A stretch of DNA of 64,000 nt from Nitrospirota bacterium (lineage in GTDB: Bacteria; Nitrospirota; Nitrospiria; Nitrospirales; Nitrospiraceae). Position numbers and translations under genes: made by a program. Under the pieces are notes generated by a model that had not been told where the DNA came from, did no database searches, and worked only from the letters and a program-made list of their open reading frames with translations. Positions 10,262 through 32,377 of the stretch are shown here, one piece after another. The DNA lies in NCBI GenBank assembly GCA_016219645.1, contig JACRLR010000067.1:62001-126000 (forward strand), in the 5' to 3' direction. Each line of letters starts with the position of its first letter. Position 1 is the first letter of the stretch.

Positions 10262-12367
<2,106 letters not shown>

Positions 12368-12539
12368 TTCGACGGTGGATCGTATCGCCCGCCCATCTCG
12401 TTGTCAACGGGGTATTGGACCTATCGTAGGTGAACCGACCGAACTATCGAGGGGTAGGACTTCCTTTCAGGGCCGCTTCATTGATTGTCGGGGTACCCTA
12501 ACGTAGAATGATGCCAGACGCCATTTTCCTGAGGAACGA

Positions 12540-13643
12540 ATGCCGATAGTCTCGACACTTCCCAAACCGATCACGGACTACCAGCGATTGTCTGCGGAGG
12601 AACTGTTCCGCCGGACGGCTGAAGCGAAACGCCTGTTGGGTGAGAGGGTTATGATCCTCGGTCATAACTATCAACGGGATGAAGTCATCGAACATGCCGA
12701 TTTTCGCGGGGACTCTCTCCTCCTCTCAAAGCTGGCAGCCGAGCGATCAGAGCGGCCCTACATCGTTTTTTGCGGCGTGCATTTCATGGCCGAGACGGCA
12801 GATATCCTGAGCCGCTCCAAACAAACGGTCATCCTTCCGGACATGGCCGCAGGCTGTTCTATGGCAGACATGGCGGCCATCGAGCAGGTCGATCACTGCT
12901 GGGAAACCCTGGGACGGATTCTCCCGGTGGAAGAGACGGTCATGCCGGCGGTCTACGTCAACTCTGCCGCGGTACTGAAAGCTTTTTGCGGCGAACACGG
13001 AGGGATTACCTGTACCTCATCCAACGCCAAGGCGGTGATTGACTGGTCTTGGGCAAGGAGGGAGAAGATCCTCTTTTTCCCGGACGAGCATCTGGGCCGC
13101 AATACGGCGAACAAGATGGGTCTGGCTAAAGAAGAGATGATTGTCTGGGACCCCTTTCAACTCAATGGGGGCAATACGCGCGGAGCGATCCAGCGGGCCA
13201 AGTTGATTCTCTGGAAAGGTCACTGCAGTGTTCACCAGATGTTCCAGCCGGTCCACGTGGACAACTTCCGGAAGCAATATCCGGAGGGGAAAGTCATCGT
13301 TCATCCTGAATGTCATGAAGATGTCGTCAACAAGGCGGACCTTTCCGGTTCGACGGAGTTCATCATCAAGACTGTGACGGCAGCTCCAGTCGGTACGGCC
13401 TGGGCGGTTGGGACAGAACTCAATCTCGTCAACCGTCTCAAGCGTGACCTGACCGATAAGAAAGTCTTTTTCCTGTCGTCTACTGTCTGCCAGTGCGCGA
13501 CGATGTTCCGGATTGATGGAGCCCATCTCTGTTGGGCGATGGAGAACCTTGTCGACGGCCATGTCGTGAACCACATCGTCGTTCCGGACGATGAGAAACA
13601 TTGGGCCAGGGTTGCGCTGGACCGCATGATGTCCGTCAGTTAG
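12540..13643 (+). CDS. nadA: Quinolinate synthase
   Basis: Condenses iminoaspartate with dihydroxyacetone phosphate to quinolinate in de novo NAD synthesis, using a [4Fe-4S] cluster. Family motifs seen: MILGHNYQRDEVIEHADFRGDS near the N-terminus, VFCGVHFMAETADIL, LPDMAAGCSMADM, GITCTSSNA, VHPECHEDVV and a late STVCQCATMFRI. Cysteines in the CGVHF, HPEC and CQC segments fit the cluster ligands. At 367 residues it is of the longer NadA type. GAGGAA precedes the ATG. Its stop codon abuts a repeat element, so it is probably monocistronic. Confidence 0.96.
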   Translation: MPIVSTLPKPITDYQRLSAEELFRRTAEAKRLLGERVMILGHNYQRDEVIEHADFRGDSLLLSKLAAERSERPYIVFCGVHFMAETADILSRSKQTVILPDMAAGCSMADMAAIEQVDHCWETLGRILPVEETVMPAVYVNSAAVLKAFCGEHGGITCTSSNAKAVIDWSWARREKILFFPDEHLGRNTANKMGLAKEEMIVWDPFQLNGGNTRGAIQRAKLILWKGHCSVHQMFQPVHVDNFRKQYPEGKVIVHPECHEDVVNKADLSGSTEFIIKTVTAAPVGTAWAVGTELNLVNRLKRDLTDKKVFFLSSTVCQCATMFRIDGAHLCWAMENLVDGHVVNHIVVPDDEKHWARVALDRMMSVS

Positions 13644-13854
13644 CAGGATCGTGAAAAACGGCTTAATTCCACCCGCCCAGCCCCGGCGCGCCGTGACGCG
13701 CCCTTTCCCGGGCATCGTTCTCGTGTCGCTCCCATGCTCAACGTACCGCTCGGGATAGAGCTGTTCTGACTGCTCGGGGCGGGCGGGTGTGAAGGGTACG
13801 CCTCGCATATTCGCTCGCTGCGGCCTTGCTGGAAGACGTTTTTGACGATCCTGC
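13643..13854. repeat. MITE-like element after nadA
   Basis: GCAGGATCGTGAAAAACG (13643-13660) and CGTTTTTGACGATCCTGC (13837-13854) pair over 18 bases with only the family-typical mismatch. It begins on the last base of the nadA stop codon. The interior has CACCCGCCCAGCCCCGGCGCGCC and a pair of inverted CTCGGG/CCCGAG words. The remaining stretch to 13951 holds the ileS leader, with no obvious promoter. Confidence 0.85.
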
Positions 13855-16765: not shown

Positions 16766-17286
16766 TGAGCGGTCCCGTTCGCTATCTGCTCTTGGCGCTG
16801 CTCAGTGGGGTGATCGTCGCGATCGATCAGGCAACGAAGCTGTCCATCATGCAGTCGATGCGACTGAACGAATCCATTCCGATTATCCCCAATCTCTTCA
16901 GCCTGACCTATATCCGCAACCCCGGTGCGGCATTTGGGTTGCTGGCCGGCAGCAGCGATGCCTTTCGCATGGTGTTCTTTGGGATCACGTCGCTTTTTGC
17001 TCTGGCCCTACTGGGAACGATCCTCTTCCGGCTCCCGCAGAAAGATTGGAAGGGGCAGCTCAGTATTGCCGGGATCCTTGGAGGGGCGATCGGGAACCTG
17101 ATCGATCGGTTACGATATGGCGAGGTGATCGATTTTCTCGATGTCTATGTGGATACATACCATTGGCCGGCCTTCAACGTTGCCGATTCTGCAATCAGCG
17201 TGGGGGTGGTCTTCTTGATCATCCACTTTGCCTTTGAGAAGAAGGATGTGCCGCTCGCCACCCATGAATCTCCCCCAGCTTCCTAG
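16765..17286 (+). CDS. lspA: Lipoprotein signal peptidase (SPase II)
   Basis: Inner-membrane aspartyl peptidase that removes signal peptides from lipoproteins. It has four hydrophobic segments and the catalytic motifs GNLIDRLRYGEVIDFLDV and FNVADSAISVG, which supply the two active-site Asp residues. The ATG at 16765 overlaps the ileS stop (TGATG); a GTG at 16762 is the alternative. Substrates within this window probably include the lipoproteins at 2384, 19153 and 38365. The repeat element at 17286 starts on the last base of its stop codon. Confidence 0.96.
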   Translation: MSGPVRYLLLALLSGVIVAIDQATKLSIMQSMRLNESIPIIPNLFSLTYIRNPGAAFGLLAGSSDAFRMVFFGITSLFALALLGTILFRLPQKDWKGQLSIAGILGGAIGNLIDRLRYGEVIDFLDVYVDTYHWPAFNVADSAISVGVVFLIIHFAFEKKDVPLATHESPPAS

Positions 17287-17504
17287 CAGGATGCTGAAAA
17301 AGGAAGGAACGGGTAGCCTGGTCGTCCTCCTGCTCGCGGAACGCGCACGCTCAGAAGGTGCTCGTTCGACGCGCGCAATCGAGGAGCGACCAGGCCACCC
17401 TTTAGAGATAGTGTGAAAAACCGCTGCGGCCTTGCCTGCGGAACGGCGCGTCTTGGCGCGCCGGGGTTGGGTGGTGTGAAGTCTGGCCTTTTTGAGCATC
17501 CTGC
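17286..17504. repeat. MITE-like element with internal hairpin
   Basis: Terminal arms GCAGGATGCTGAAAAAGG (17286-17303) and CCTTTTTGAGCATCCTGC (17487-17504). The internal hairpin (17311-17400) has arms GGGTAGCCTGGTCGTCC and its near complement, around core CTCGCGGAACGCGCACG...CTCGTTCGACGCGCGCA. It is very similar to the element at 54-272, but its outer arms differ while still pairing with each other. Confidence 0.88.
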
Positions 17505-17529
17505 GGCTGGCCCGTTCTGCCACAGCCAG

Positions 17530-28342: not shown

Positions 28343-30958
28343 ATGAACAAACTATTGTCTCTCCATCTCACTCTGATCCGTGCGCATGCGCTCCAGCGGC
28401 CATTTCGTGCTTGCCTCAGCATTGCCGGAGTGGCCCTGGGTGTGCTGGCCTCAGTGGGTATCGGGACGGCGAACGTTCAGGTCCTGCGATCTTTTGAACA
28501 AGCCGTCACGACAGTCGCCGGTTCCGCCACAGTGGAAATTGTGGGCAACGATCTCGGAGTGGATGAATCGGTGATTACGGCTGTCCGTGTGATCGAAGGA
28601 GTGGTGAGCGCCGCGCCGGTCATTGAAGAATCCGTTATGGTCGCCCAGGGGGAATCACGTGGCCAAGCGCTTCAGGTCTTGGGGCTGGATCTCCTGGCAG
28701 AGGTTGGAACGCGCGGGTTTCGACTATCGCAGGCTGACACCGATGTGGCGCTGGAGGCGCTCTTGGCTCCCGACACGCTGTACCTTGGCCGTCAGATTGC
28801 TGCAGATCTGAAGGTGGGGGTTGGTGCTGTCATCGAGGTAACTGCGGGAGGACGTCCAGCCAAGCTACGAGTTGCGGGGCTCATCCAAACAGAGGCGGAG
28901 GGTTCGACACTCTGGGATCGGCTTGCGGTGATGGATATTGCCGCGGCGCAGCTGTTGTTCCAATCATTCGGGCGGTTGGATCGGATCGAGTTGGTGACGG
29001 CGCCTGCTCGAACGCCAGAGGATATCGTGACTTCCGTGCGAGCGGCTCTTCCTCCCCATCTTGTCGCGCAACGGCCGGCGCAACGGTCAAAGCAGCTCGA
29101 GAACATGGTGTGGGCCTTCCAACTCAACCTGTCAGTCATGAGCTGGGTCGGGCTGCTCATCGGGGCGTTCTTGATCTATAACACGATCGCGTTTGCCGTG
29201 GCGCAGCGGAGGCGCGAGGTCGGCATCTATCGCGCGCTTGGCATGACGGAGCGGCGGGTCGCAGGCCAGTTTCTGGCAGAAGCGGGCTTGCTCGGTCTGC
29301 TTGGCGGGCTATTGGGAGGTCTTGGCGGGGTCTGGCTTGCCAGGAGTTTGGTATCGATCGTGAGCCGGACGATCTCCGACCTGTATGCACCGGTCACGTC
29401 GGGCGGGCTGATCCTGTCGGTGGACATGGTGACACTCATGGCAGTGGCAAAAGGAGTTCTGCTCGGGACAGTCGTCTCGATGGTCGGGGCCTTGGGTCCC
29501 AGCGTGGAAGCAGGCAGGACTGTGACTGCCCGTGCCTTGGCGCCGGGAGACTATGAGTCGACTCGTCAATTGAGAGTGGGCCTGTTCGGTTGGATCAGTC
29601 TTGTATTGTTCGTGCTGGCAGGCCTTTGCTCGCTGATGGGGCCAGTCGGAGACCTACCGCTCTTTGGCTATCTTGCAACAGTATGTGTGTTGGGGGCGCT
29701 TTCCTGTCTTGCGCCGCTCTGTATCCAGGCGCTGCGCCAGCGGCGCTCCCATCCGGACGGCACGATGATGCTCGGGGGGAGTCTCAGGCATATCGCGGCA
29801 GACCAGGCGGCACGCCATCCGGGCAGGAACGCAGTAACGGTATCGGCGTTGATGGTGGGACTGTCGGTCATGATCGGTGTGGCTGTCATGGTTCGTAGTT
29901 TTCGTGACACGGTCGAGGTCTGGGTGGATGAGACCGTGATGGCCGATCTCATCGTGGCCCCGCAATCGTGGCTTCAAGGGAAACAGGTTGGGCAGTCGTC
30001 GCGCGCCTTACCAGGGACCTGGCGTTCAACCCTGTCGTCGATTGATGGCATTGCCGCGGTCGATACCCTCAGGGAAATGTCTGTCGGCGTCGACGGGCAA
30101 CCGGTGGCGTTGGTGTCACGGGACCTCCGGCTCCATGCGCAGCGCAGCCGGTATCGGATGGTTCGAGGGGATTCGACCGAAGCGTTGCAACGAGCCGCCG
30201 ACACAGGCGGCATCCTTCTGTCGGAAGTGCTCGCAACTCGCTTACAGCTTCGGGAGGGGAGCAAGGTTTCAATTACGACGCCGGCAGGACCTGTGACTGT
30301 GTCCGTTGAAGGGGTCTTTTACGATTATGCGACCGACGGTGGGAAAATCGTGGTTGATCGAGCCTGGTATCAGCGAGAGTGGCGCGATGATCGGGTGAAC
30401 GTGTTTTCCATCTACTTGGCTGCCGGGGCTGATGCAGAACAAGTTCGGCAGTCGATTATCATGCACGTCGCGGGGCTTGATGGAATGACGGTTCCACCGC
30501 TGGTGATTCGAAACCACGAGTTGCGGCGAGAGATCCTCGAAATCTTCGACCGGTCCTTCGAATTGACCTATGTCCTTGAAGCCATCGCCGTTTTGGTGGC
30601 CGTGCTCGGCATCGTCAATACTTTGGTGACGGCGGTGTTGGAGCGACGACGTGAATTTGCTTCGTTGCGGGCCATTGGCGCCGGCACGAGGCAAGTGGAG
30701 CGATTGGTCTTGTGGGAGGCGGCCTATCTGGGGTTGATCGGGGCAGTTCTAGGCGTCGCGGGAGGCCTACTGCTCGCTCTACTGCTCATCCACGTGATCA
30801 ATAAACAGTCCTTTGGTTGGACGATTCAGATGACGGTTCCAGCTGGATTGATTCTGCAAGCAGTAGGACTCGCACTCACAGCTGCCCTGGTAGCCGGCTT
30901 CTTCCCGGCACGTTGGGCCGCGCGGCAGCCTGTGGTGGAGGGGCTAAGGGAGGAGTAG
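28343..30958 (+). CDS. YbbP/LolC-type ABC permease, two FtsX domains
   Basis: An 871-residue inner-membrane permease. N-terminal signal-anchor (ACLSIAGVALGVLASVGIG), a periplasmic domain, a first FtsX block (LSVMSWVGLLIGAFLIYNTIAFAVAQRRREVGIYRALGM), central transmembrane segments, a second periplasmic domain and a last FtsX block (VLGIVNTLVTAVLERRREFASLRAIGA). This duplicated layout is typical of YbbP-like permeases paired with YbbA ATPase (the gene at 26293). The substrate is unknown; lipids or lipoproteins are likely by class. The stop codon lies inside the arm of the hairpin 30954-31052. Confidence 0.92.
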   Translation: MNKLLSLHLTLIRAHALQRPFRACLSIAGVALGVLASVGIGTANVQVLRSFEQAVTTVAGSATVEIVGNDLGVDESVITAVRVIEGVVSAAPVIEESVMVAQGESRGQALQVLGLDLLAEVGTRGFRLSQADTDVALEALLAPDTLYLGRQIAADLKVGVGAVIEVTAGGRPAKLRVAGLIQTEAEGSTLWDRLAVMDIAAAQLLFQSFGRLDRIELVTAPARTPEDIVTSVRAALPPHLVAQRPAQRSKQLENMVWAFQLNLSVMSWVGLLIGAFLIYNTIAFAVAQRRREVGIYRALGMTERRVAGQFLAEAGLLGLLGGLLGGLGGVWLARSLVSIVSRTISDLYAPVTSGGLILSVDMVTLMAVAKGVLLGTVVSMVGALGPSVEAGRTVTARALAPGDYESTRQLRVGLFGWISLVLFVLAGLCSLMGPVGDLPLFGYLATVCVLGALSCLAPLCIQALRQRRSHPDGTMMLGGSLRHIAADQAARHPGRNAVTVSALMVGLSVMIGVAVMVRSFRDTVEVWVDETVMADLIVAPQSWLQGKQVGQSSRALPGTWRSTLSSIDGIAAVDTLREMSVGVDGQPVALVSRDLRLHAQRSRYRMVRGDSTEALQRAADTGGILLSEVLATRLQLREGSKVSITTPAGPVTVSVEGVFYDYATDGGKIVVDRAWYQREWRDDRVNVFSIYLAAGADAEQVRQSIIMHVAGLDGMTVPPLVIRNHELRREILEIFDRSFELTYVLEAIAVLVAVLGIVNTLVTAVLERRREFASLRAIGAGTRQVERLVLWEAAYLGLIGAVLGVAGGLLLALLLIHVINKQSFGWTIQMTVPAGLILQAVGLALTAALVAGFFPARWAARQPVVEGLREE

Positions 30959-31052
30959 GCGGCCTGGGTTGGTCCCCTTGCTCACGGAACGCCCACGATA
31001 AAACAGTGGTCGTTCGACGTGCGCAGTGGAGGACCAACCCAGGCCGCCTACT
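30954..31052 (+). repeat. Conserved-core hairpin with perfect 22-bp arms
   Basis: Arms 30954-30975 and 31031-31052 are perfectly complementary (outer part AGTAGGCGGCCTGG). The core is TTGCTCACGGAACGCCCACGATAAAACAGTGGTCGTTCGACGTGCGCAGT, split here as family words. The left arm includes the permease stop codon, so the hairpin starts inside the gene and should act as a strong transcript end. Confidence 0.9.
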
Positions 31053-31089
31053 CGGGAGAGGAAAAACGAGCAAGCTTGGAAGGGTCATT

Positions 31090-31235
31090 GTAATGGTGTG
31101 CTCGCGCAACGCGCGGTCGCGGACTCCCCTCGTTGGACGCGCTCAGTGGGAATGAACAGGGATTGCTATTCCTTCTGGTAGGGTGGGGTTGGGAGACAAA
31201 ACAGTGCTCGCTCGACGGGCGCAGTAGACATGAAG
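31090..31235. repeat. Armless repeat cores
   Basis: GTGCTCGCGCAACGCGCG...CTCGTTGGACGCGCTCAGTG (31099-31150) and a shorter GTGCTCGCTCGACGGGCGCAGT (31203-31225) match the family core but lack obvious pairing arms. They look like decayed copies downstream of the intact hairpin. Confidence 0.55.
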
Positions 31236-31249
31236 GCGCCGAGGCGTAC

Positions 31250-32293
31250 TCAGTGCCGTACGTTGAGGGGTTCGAGCGACTGAGAACGAGGCTGGGGGCC
31301 TTTTTCAGCAGCCGCTTGGTAGTCCACTTCGATCTTGAAACCCAGATCCTCGATCATGCTCCAGACTTCGTGGGCTGGCTGGCCTGGTGTCGTGAGGTAG
31401 CCGTTTACGAAGATGGAGTCGGCTGGGTAGAGGGCTAAGGGCTGTAGGCTGCGGAGGTTATGTTCGCGGCCTCCGGCAATACGAAGTTCGGTGCGCGGGT
31501 GGAGGAAACGGAAGAGGCAGAGGACTTTCAGACATCGTTGTGGCGTGAGATTGTCGCAGTTCTCTAACGGGGTGCCTGTCGCCGGATGGAGCATGTTCAG
31601 TGGAATCGAATCCGGACTGACTTCGCGGAGTGCCATGGCGAGGTCGATGAGATCCTCGTCCTTCTCACCCATGCCGACGATTCCACCGGAGCAGATTTCC
31701 AAGCCTGCCGCTCGAGCACTCCGGATGGTGCTCAGTCGGTCCTGGAATGTATGGGTGGTACAGATCGAAGAATGAAAGGCTTCGCTCGTATTCAAGTTAT
31801 GGTTCACTCGATCGACTCCTGCCGCTTTCAGTCGCTTGGCCTGTTGTTCATTCATAAGGCCGAGTGAACAGCAGATCTGGATCGGAATCTCCTCCTTGAT
31901 TGAGCGGACGGCTCCGGCGATTTCGTCGATTTCACGGTCCAACGGACTTCGACCGCTGATGACGATGCAATAACGCTGGGCTTTCGACGCTGCCGCCTGT
32001 CGGGCACCAGCGAGCATCTCTTGTCGGGGCAGGAGGTTATAGCGCTCGATGGGGGCAGTGGAAATCGCAGACTGAGAACAGTAGTGGCAGTCTTCCTGGC
32101 AGGCCCCGCTCTTTGCATTTTGCAACATCTGGAGGCGAACGGTCTTGCCGAAATAGTGGGATCGGACGGTGAATGCGGCTTGGATAAGCCCCAGTAACTG
32201 CTCATCCGGACTGTTGAGCACAGCCTGGCATTCGCTTCTGGTCAGCATTTCGTCGCGCAAGGCTTTGGCAGCAAAACCCTGATAATCGATCAT
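31250..32293 (-). CDS. bioB: Biotin synthase
   Basis: Radical-SAM sulfur insertion enzyme converting dethiobiotin to biotin. It has the C-x3-C-x2-C cluster motif SGACQEDCHYCSQS near residue 62, YNLLPRQEML, and later NLNTSEAFH and GGIVGMGEKDEDLIDLA. ATG 32293 is chosen because GGAGTG lies just upstream; longer starts extend to 32365. The C-terminal tail AAAEKGPQ is read from a repeat end (TTTTTCAGCAGCCGC), so an element insertion seems to have rewritten the last residues. It stands alone on the minus strand, without bioF or bioD. Confidence 0.95.
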   Translation of the reverse strand: MIDYQGFAAKALRDEMLTRSECQAVLNSPDEQLLGLIQAAFTVRSHYFGKTVRLQMLQNAKSGACQEDCHYCSQSAISTAPIERYNLLPRQEMLAGARQAAASKAQRYCIVISGRSPLDREIDEIAGAVRSIKEEIPIQICCSLGLMNEQQAKRLKAAGVDRVNHNLNTSEAFHSSICTTHTFQDRLSTIRSARAAGLEICSGGIVGMGEKDEDLIDLAMALREVSPDSIPLNMLHPATGTPLENCDNLTPQRCLKVLCLFRFLHPRTELRIAGGREHNLRSLQPLALYPADSIFVNGYLTTPGQPAHEVWSMIEDLGFKIEVDYQAAAEKGPQPRSQSLEPLNVRH

Positions 32294-32377
32294 AGGACAC
32301 TCCATCGCCTGTAGAGGTTGCGTTGATTGCGACGCGGATGACGACACGTCTGTGTGGTAGACCAATTGGCCGAAAAC

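Follow-up and report, generated by a model that had tools for sequence, protein, structure and literature searches.

The window studied here, a stretch of 64,000 nucleotides from a Nitrospirota bacterium, contains an FtsX/MacB-type permease gene whose 3' end lies within one arm of a long hairpin. The features needed for what follows are, in positions of the window:

28343-30958, + strand: FtsX/MacB-type permease gene, 871 aa with FtsX and MacB domains; 3' end GAG GAG TAG
30953-30975, + strand: left arm of the hairpin, 23 nt, starting in the last GAG (Glu) codon of the permease
30956-30958, + strand: permease stop codon TAG, within the left arm
30958-31048, + strand: unit common to copies elsewhere (query 12-102 of 114), outer feet excluded
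30979-31025, + strand: inner stem and loop, forming the conserved core of the family
31031-31053, + strand: right arm, also 23 nt, fully complementary to the left one
31049-31053, + strand: right foot (TACTC), which complements GAGTA of the host; the usual foot elsewhere is CCTTG
31054-31096, + strand: tail (..ACGAGCAAGC..), also seen by eye 3' of hairpins of the same subfamily at other loci
31097-31173, + strand: older type-X hairpin without left arm; the foot, CTATTCCT at 31166-31173, is complementary to the permease end in its GAA-TAG form
31195-31229, + strand: remnant, right half of a third, still older hairpin (by eye)
31250-32365, - strand: radical SAM/BATS gene, convergent
863-964, + strand: second family hairpin with a host gene end (ATGGGGTAG) in its arm, at the SnoaL-like gene 437-871
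13643-13846 and 17286-17505: second repeat, directly after stop codons, bounded by the terminal inverted repeats AGGATGCTGAAAAA/TTTTTGAGCATCCT

The arms of the hairpin at 30953-31053 are complementary at 23/23 positions with 55 nt between them, and its predicted fold of -80 kcal/mol compares with -42.1 (sd 3.8) for shuffled sequences (z = -9.9). The preliminary description had reported a perfect hairpin of 22 bp that starts inside the permease gene and includes its TAG; the perfect pairing and the overlap with the gene are as described, while the arm is 23 nt long. A classical intrinsic (rho-independent) terminator was rejected, as there is no T run and no terminator-like site at 30900-31300; TTTT occurs near the right foot in 3/139 copies of the family. 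A known structured RNA was rejected as well: when the whole window was searched against Rfam at the gathering threshold, the sole match was a TPP riboswitch (RF00059) elsewhere, at 12272-12374 on the minus strand, and relaxing the search to E values up to 1 gave two microRNA models only, far below gathering.

The window itself has seven full copies, which can be aligned as a single family. In the genome from which the window derives (3.65 Mb, 71 contigs; the organism resembles Nitrospira) there are at least 150 copies, since a first look gave 1102 candidates, of which 150 were scored, and 150/150 had E values of 0.01 or less. Family matches are present in all 32 genomes of the same genus (the present one included) and in 5/5 genomes from other genera of the same family, and just one of 24 genomes from other families has a match, a single one. 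No description of the hairpin family was found in the open-licence literature searched. The core is nearly constant (95-100% identical between many loci, among the matches listed in a DNA search), whereas the arms either group into several subfamilies or occur at one locus only: the relatives elsewhere of the type-Y hairpin of the window align mostly over query 12-102 only, and with the type-X hairpin of G021 as query, the matches listed beyond the permease consist of the core and arm edges only (query ~13-88 at most). In this genome the family tends to sit in sense orientation just 3' of stops. Among the 125 copies with a stem score of at least 9, a same-strand upstream gene ends inside the left foot or at most 10 nt before it in 34/94 cases, and a convergent gene ends at the right foot in 1/35 (Fisher p = 4.5e-5). 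Most family copies do not absorb the stop.

The preliminary description had held that the codons in the arm cannot have been carried in by the element, and had proposed comparing orthologous permease 3' ends. This comparison settles the origin of the codons at the permease: the protein ends in REE* at 30/30 orthologous loci, hairpin present or absent (VEGLREE* or VDGLREE*, with codons GARGARTAR or GARGARTGA), and the codons are therefore those of the host. Inspected by eye, five intact type-X permease hairpins (G007, G008, G014, G021 and G027) have feet CTATTCCT, CTATTCTT or CTATTCCTC facing GARGAATAG, and the type-Y hairpins (the genome of the window, G003, G010 and G013) have feet CTACTC or CTCCTC facing GARGAGTAG. 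Codon and foot thus switch together, the pairs being GAGTAG with CTACTC, GAATAG with CTATTC, and GAAGAATAG with CTATTCTT. The type-Z hairpins of G022, G026 and G028 are intact and lack a host-matched foot (by eye). Those three loci combine the same permease codons with an unrelated second arm, which the preliminary description had named as the observation that would refute it; what they indicate is that the codons were there before the hairpin foot and that copying need not occur, not that copying never happened.

The foot belongs to the gene and not to the family. For a comparison of feet, 34 loci were entered (30 relatives of the type-Y hairpin and 4 own loci), of which 25 reach both ends, namely 20 elsewhere and 5 permease-gene copies; among the latter are one on a second contig of G025 and one at another permease-like gene end in G024. 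When the outer 6 bases are compared, the five permease-gene copies pair with their own host at 5.00/6. The 20 copies elsewhere have different feet, mostly CCTTGA, which match their own flanks at 2.65 and pair with the permease hosts at just 1.10/6, so that the outer foot is gene-specific. Its bases at the permease are thus non-native and matched to the host, as the preliminary description had supposed of the second arm. TACTC, which matches the host, differs from CCTTG at 4/5 adjacent bases, as would be expected for one copying event. In view of the unchanged C-terminus (30/30 loci) and the different feet elsewhere, a stop supplied by the element was rejected for the permease.

Other genes show host-matched feet too. 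For the SnoaL-type gene (437-871), the preliminary description had placed the start of an element on the last base of the stop codon; a hairpin of the same kind is indeed present, and its arm reaches further into the gene, over ATGGGGTAG (863-871). Whether or not a hairpin follows, nearly all same-genus orthologues keep the end GSAVMG* (by eye; G018 reads on), and hairpins with unrelated arms at this gene have feet that mostly complement ATGGGGTAG (CCCCAT-like; by eye). The host origin of the codons and the host-matched second arm thus hold for this gene as well. Here too the codon and the foot change together, ATGGGCTAA being paired with TCAGCCCAT and ATGGGGTAG with CTCCCCCAT, and in G017 the end ATGGGCTAA is accompanied by the foot TCAGCCCATGACC (by eye). 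For the SnoaL-gene hairpins of G007 and G001, no foot complementary to the gene end was seen by eye. Three hairpins of the UvrA gene pair TAA with TTA, TGA with TCA and, more weakly, a third combination.

Four loci were then considered jointly in a test anchored on the first bases after the stop, which used 10/30 permease, 7/16 SnoaL, 13/18 589-aa and 4/15 UvrA loci; it left out orthologues near a contig end or with too few paired post-stop bases, and intact hairpins such as those of G014, G027, G009 and G011 were missed by it and are described by eye only. Over these 34 hairpins, the score between a gene end and its own foot is 5.59, against 3.91 when feet are shuffled among all hairpins and 4.65 when they are shuffled within a locus; 0/2000 shuffles reach 5.59 under either scheme, values that overstate the certainty because the genomes are related and not independent samples. 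Within the present genome, the first bases after the stop find a partner in 16/48 gene-end hairpins, whose own score is 4.56 against 3.17 when shuffled; with the loci of the four-locus test removed, 13 gene-end hairpins score 3.92 against 3.01 (p <= 0.002). A score of at least 6 is reached by only six of the 16, one of which, L041, has a stop supplied by the element.

This last locus belongs to a 283-aa gene. In 14/15 same-genus orthologues, there is no family hairpin after the gene or the sequence is cut off there, and the sole hairpin copy, that of the present genome (L041:8192-8294), coincides with a changed C-terminus and a stop in element-type sequence (both by eye): the protein ends in QGEVA*, and the hairpin-less orthologues end in QGHSGA*-like sequence. 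The 589-aa gene in G019 resembles this case, its stop coming from the element (by eye). We take the element itself to have supplied the stop at these two genes, and the exclusion of element-borne codons in the preliminary description is therefore not supported as a general rule. That the element carried the stop and the outer arm in, replacing the gene end, fits these two cases; extended to the hairpin at the permease, with its constant C-terminus and the different feet of the 20 copies elsewhere, this explanation is very improbable.

The elements at 13643 and 17286, which the preliminary description had treated as the same case, belong to a different repeat family, with ends (C)AGGATGCTGAAAAA ... 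TTTTTGAGCATCCT GC, whose left end is preceded by T-A-R in most of the 54 left ends at loci of this genome (T in 42, A in 40, G or A in 50). In the pairs compared by eye, TAG and TAA on the left are both accompanied by an unchanged GC at the right end, and the second repeat therefore does not copy the host; no copying was seen at the 13643 and 17286 elements. Most relatives within the genus share the ends of NadA (VS*) and LspA, and several outgroups share that of NadA as well, so that these stops look host-derived too. A single process behind the four genes listed in the preliminary description was rejected, given that two of them adjoin this other repeat.

The relation between hairpin and codon was followed on a tree of 30 permease sequences from which the last 9 bases had been removed; the script assigned no hairpin type at 8/30 loci (G001, G002, G005, G006, G011, G017, G020 and G024). 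Hairpin type goes with the last codon or the stop: type X is found with GAA in 9/10 cases, type Y with GAG in 6/6, and type V with TGA in 3/3, a stop present in 0/27 of the others. Even sister genomes differ in both, G000 having Y/GAG and G030 X/GAA, and G012 having V/TGA and G026 Z/TAG. Such co-switching means either that each arm can be rewritten from the other or that the whole 3' end is exchanged. Since type and codon/stop switch as a block, whole 3' ends may move by recombination, in which case fewer copying events are needed. The last codon, stop and hairpin would then travel as an allele or cassette between related genomes, and complementary feet would have arisen rarely and spread afterwards. 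The differences between sister genomes are in favour of this, as are the near-identity of the core between many of the loci listed and the older right-half remnants downstream (31097-31173 and 31195-31229; also G003 and G027), which look as if left parts had been exchanged through the core. What it leaves unexplained is how a host-complementary foot first originated, and why SnoaL-gene hairpins with unrelated arms mostly end in a CCCCAT-like complement. As the main cause, we regard it as rather unlikely, while giving it some weight.

The downstream remnants at the permease show that hairpins have been replaced repeatedly. At 31097-31229, right halves of older hairpins are stacked behind the intact one, as if the left part had been swapped by each newcomer at one stop.

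A complementary foot could also reflect selection for a longer mRNA stem, with a function in 3' end protection or in ribosome or transcription control, to which the right arm would have adapted by compensatory substitutions. The sense placement of copies beside stops is consistent with this (34/94 against 1/35, as given above), and E. coli REPs at most 15 nt from a stop are reported to lower translation (PMC12306157). The mismatches in the stems point the other way, A.C exceeding G.T by 195 to 96 in 139 copies and by 45 to 28 in the 32 copies with distinct arms (p = 0.06). In the outer half of the stem (left-arm positions 9-20) of these 32 copies, there are 7 G.T and 31 A.C mismatches, which is not the G.U excess expected if pairing of the sense RNA were selected. 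Moreover, the antisense strand has the more stable fold in 114/139 copies, 6 extra pairs should matter little on a stem of about -80 kcal/mol, and 4/5 adjacent foot bases differ from the usual foot. Selection on the sense RNA is accordingly less likely, and we take it to be an improbable origin of the feet. The A.C lean on the gene-sense strand in the 139 copies (window and own-genome loci) could point to a role of the antisense strand as single-stranded DNA.

We consider it somewhat more probable than not that template switching during replication wrote a copy of the host flank, with its stop and last codon, into the right arm. A copy of the family would have settled 3' of the permease; DNA polymerase would then have switched template at the palindrome through foldback of the nascent strand, that part of the left flank would have been copied across, and the native foot CCTTG would have been replaced by the host complement TACTC. 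Template switching would explain why adjacent bases change jointly and how coding sequence came to be part of the stem, and the reverse copying, from the arm into a synonymous codon, would account for part of the co-switching. In E. coli, it is established that template switching makes imperfect palindromes more perfect (PMC7202029), and the patterns by which RNA hairpins are created and maintained have been found consistent with template switching (PMC8794818). The change from CCTTG to TACTC fits the rewriting of an imperfect arm into a complementary one over several adjacent bases, as read from natural genomes. The three intact type-Z permease hairpins without a host-matched foot speak against a simple version of copying, as do the block-wise switching of codon and hairpin type, the two genes with a stop from the element, and the low share of gene-end hairpins in this genome with partnered post-stop bases (16/48). 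That template switching was the cause, and whether it acted at insertion or afterwards, is what we infer from present-day genomes and not from a reconstructed ancestor. A more specific and doubtful version is that the foot is written during insertion, the hairpin joining the DNA at the stop as a single strand, folding back, priming on the coding end and being sealed; this reading agrees with the stacking of successive hairpins at a single stop, where every hairpin has a host-complementary foot of its own. If true, each new copy would be tailored to its target.

Taken as a whole, the mutation process is a known one, while the setting is new and rich. As in the quasipalindrome template-switch mutation of E. 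coli (PMC7202029, PMC8794818), one arm is copied from the other and adjacent bases change together; unlike there, the process is here deduced from natural genomes, concerns a dispersed repeat family, and brings the stop and last codons of a neighbouring gene into the stem. Template switching between the arms of inverted repeats in yeast coding genes likewise homogenises arms and touches coding sequence (PMC8604942), whereas in our case the non-coding arm seems to follow a coding arm that is kept by selection on the protein. With REP/BIME sequences the family shares the many dispersed palindromes, often directly 3' of stops, but the hairpin is ~100 nt long with locus-specific arms around a constant core, and REPs are 14-40 nt long with one common consensus, so that it is not a REP by this measure. 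A search of the genome for REP transposases (Y1, RAYT-type) gave one Y1_Tnp match, L233 (G000:C20:51681-52004), a possible partner of the hairpin. In the coding palindromes of Nematomorpha mitochondria (PMC6649704), inverted-repeat arms overlap coding sequence as well; there both arms are coding and reach up to 284 bp, while here it is one arm and a few codons. The loci described above form a natural record, over ~30 related genomes, of palindromes that grow into gene ends and of host codons and feet that change together, and they are a warning that covariation in bacterial hairpins need not imply selection on RNA structure.
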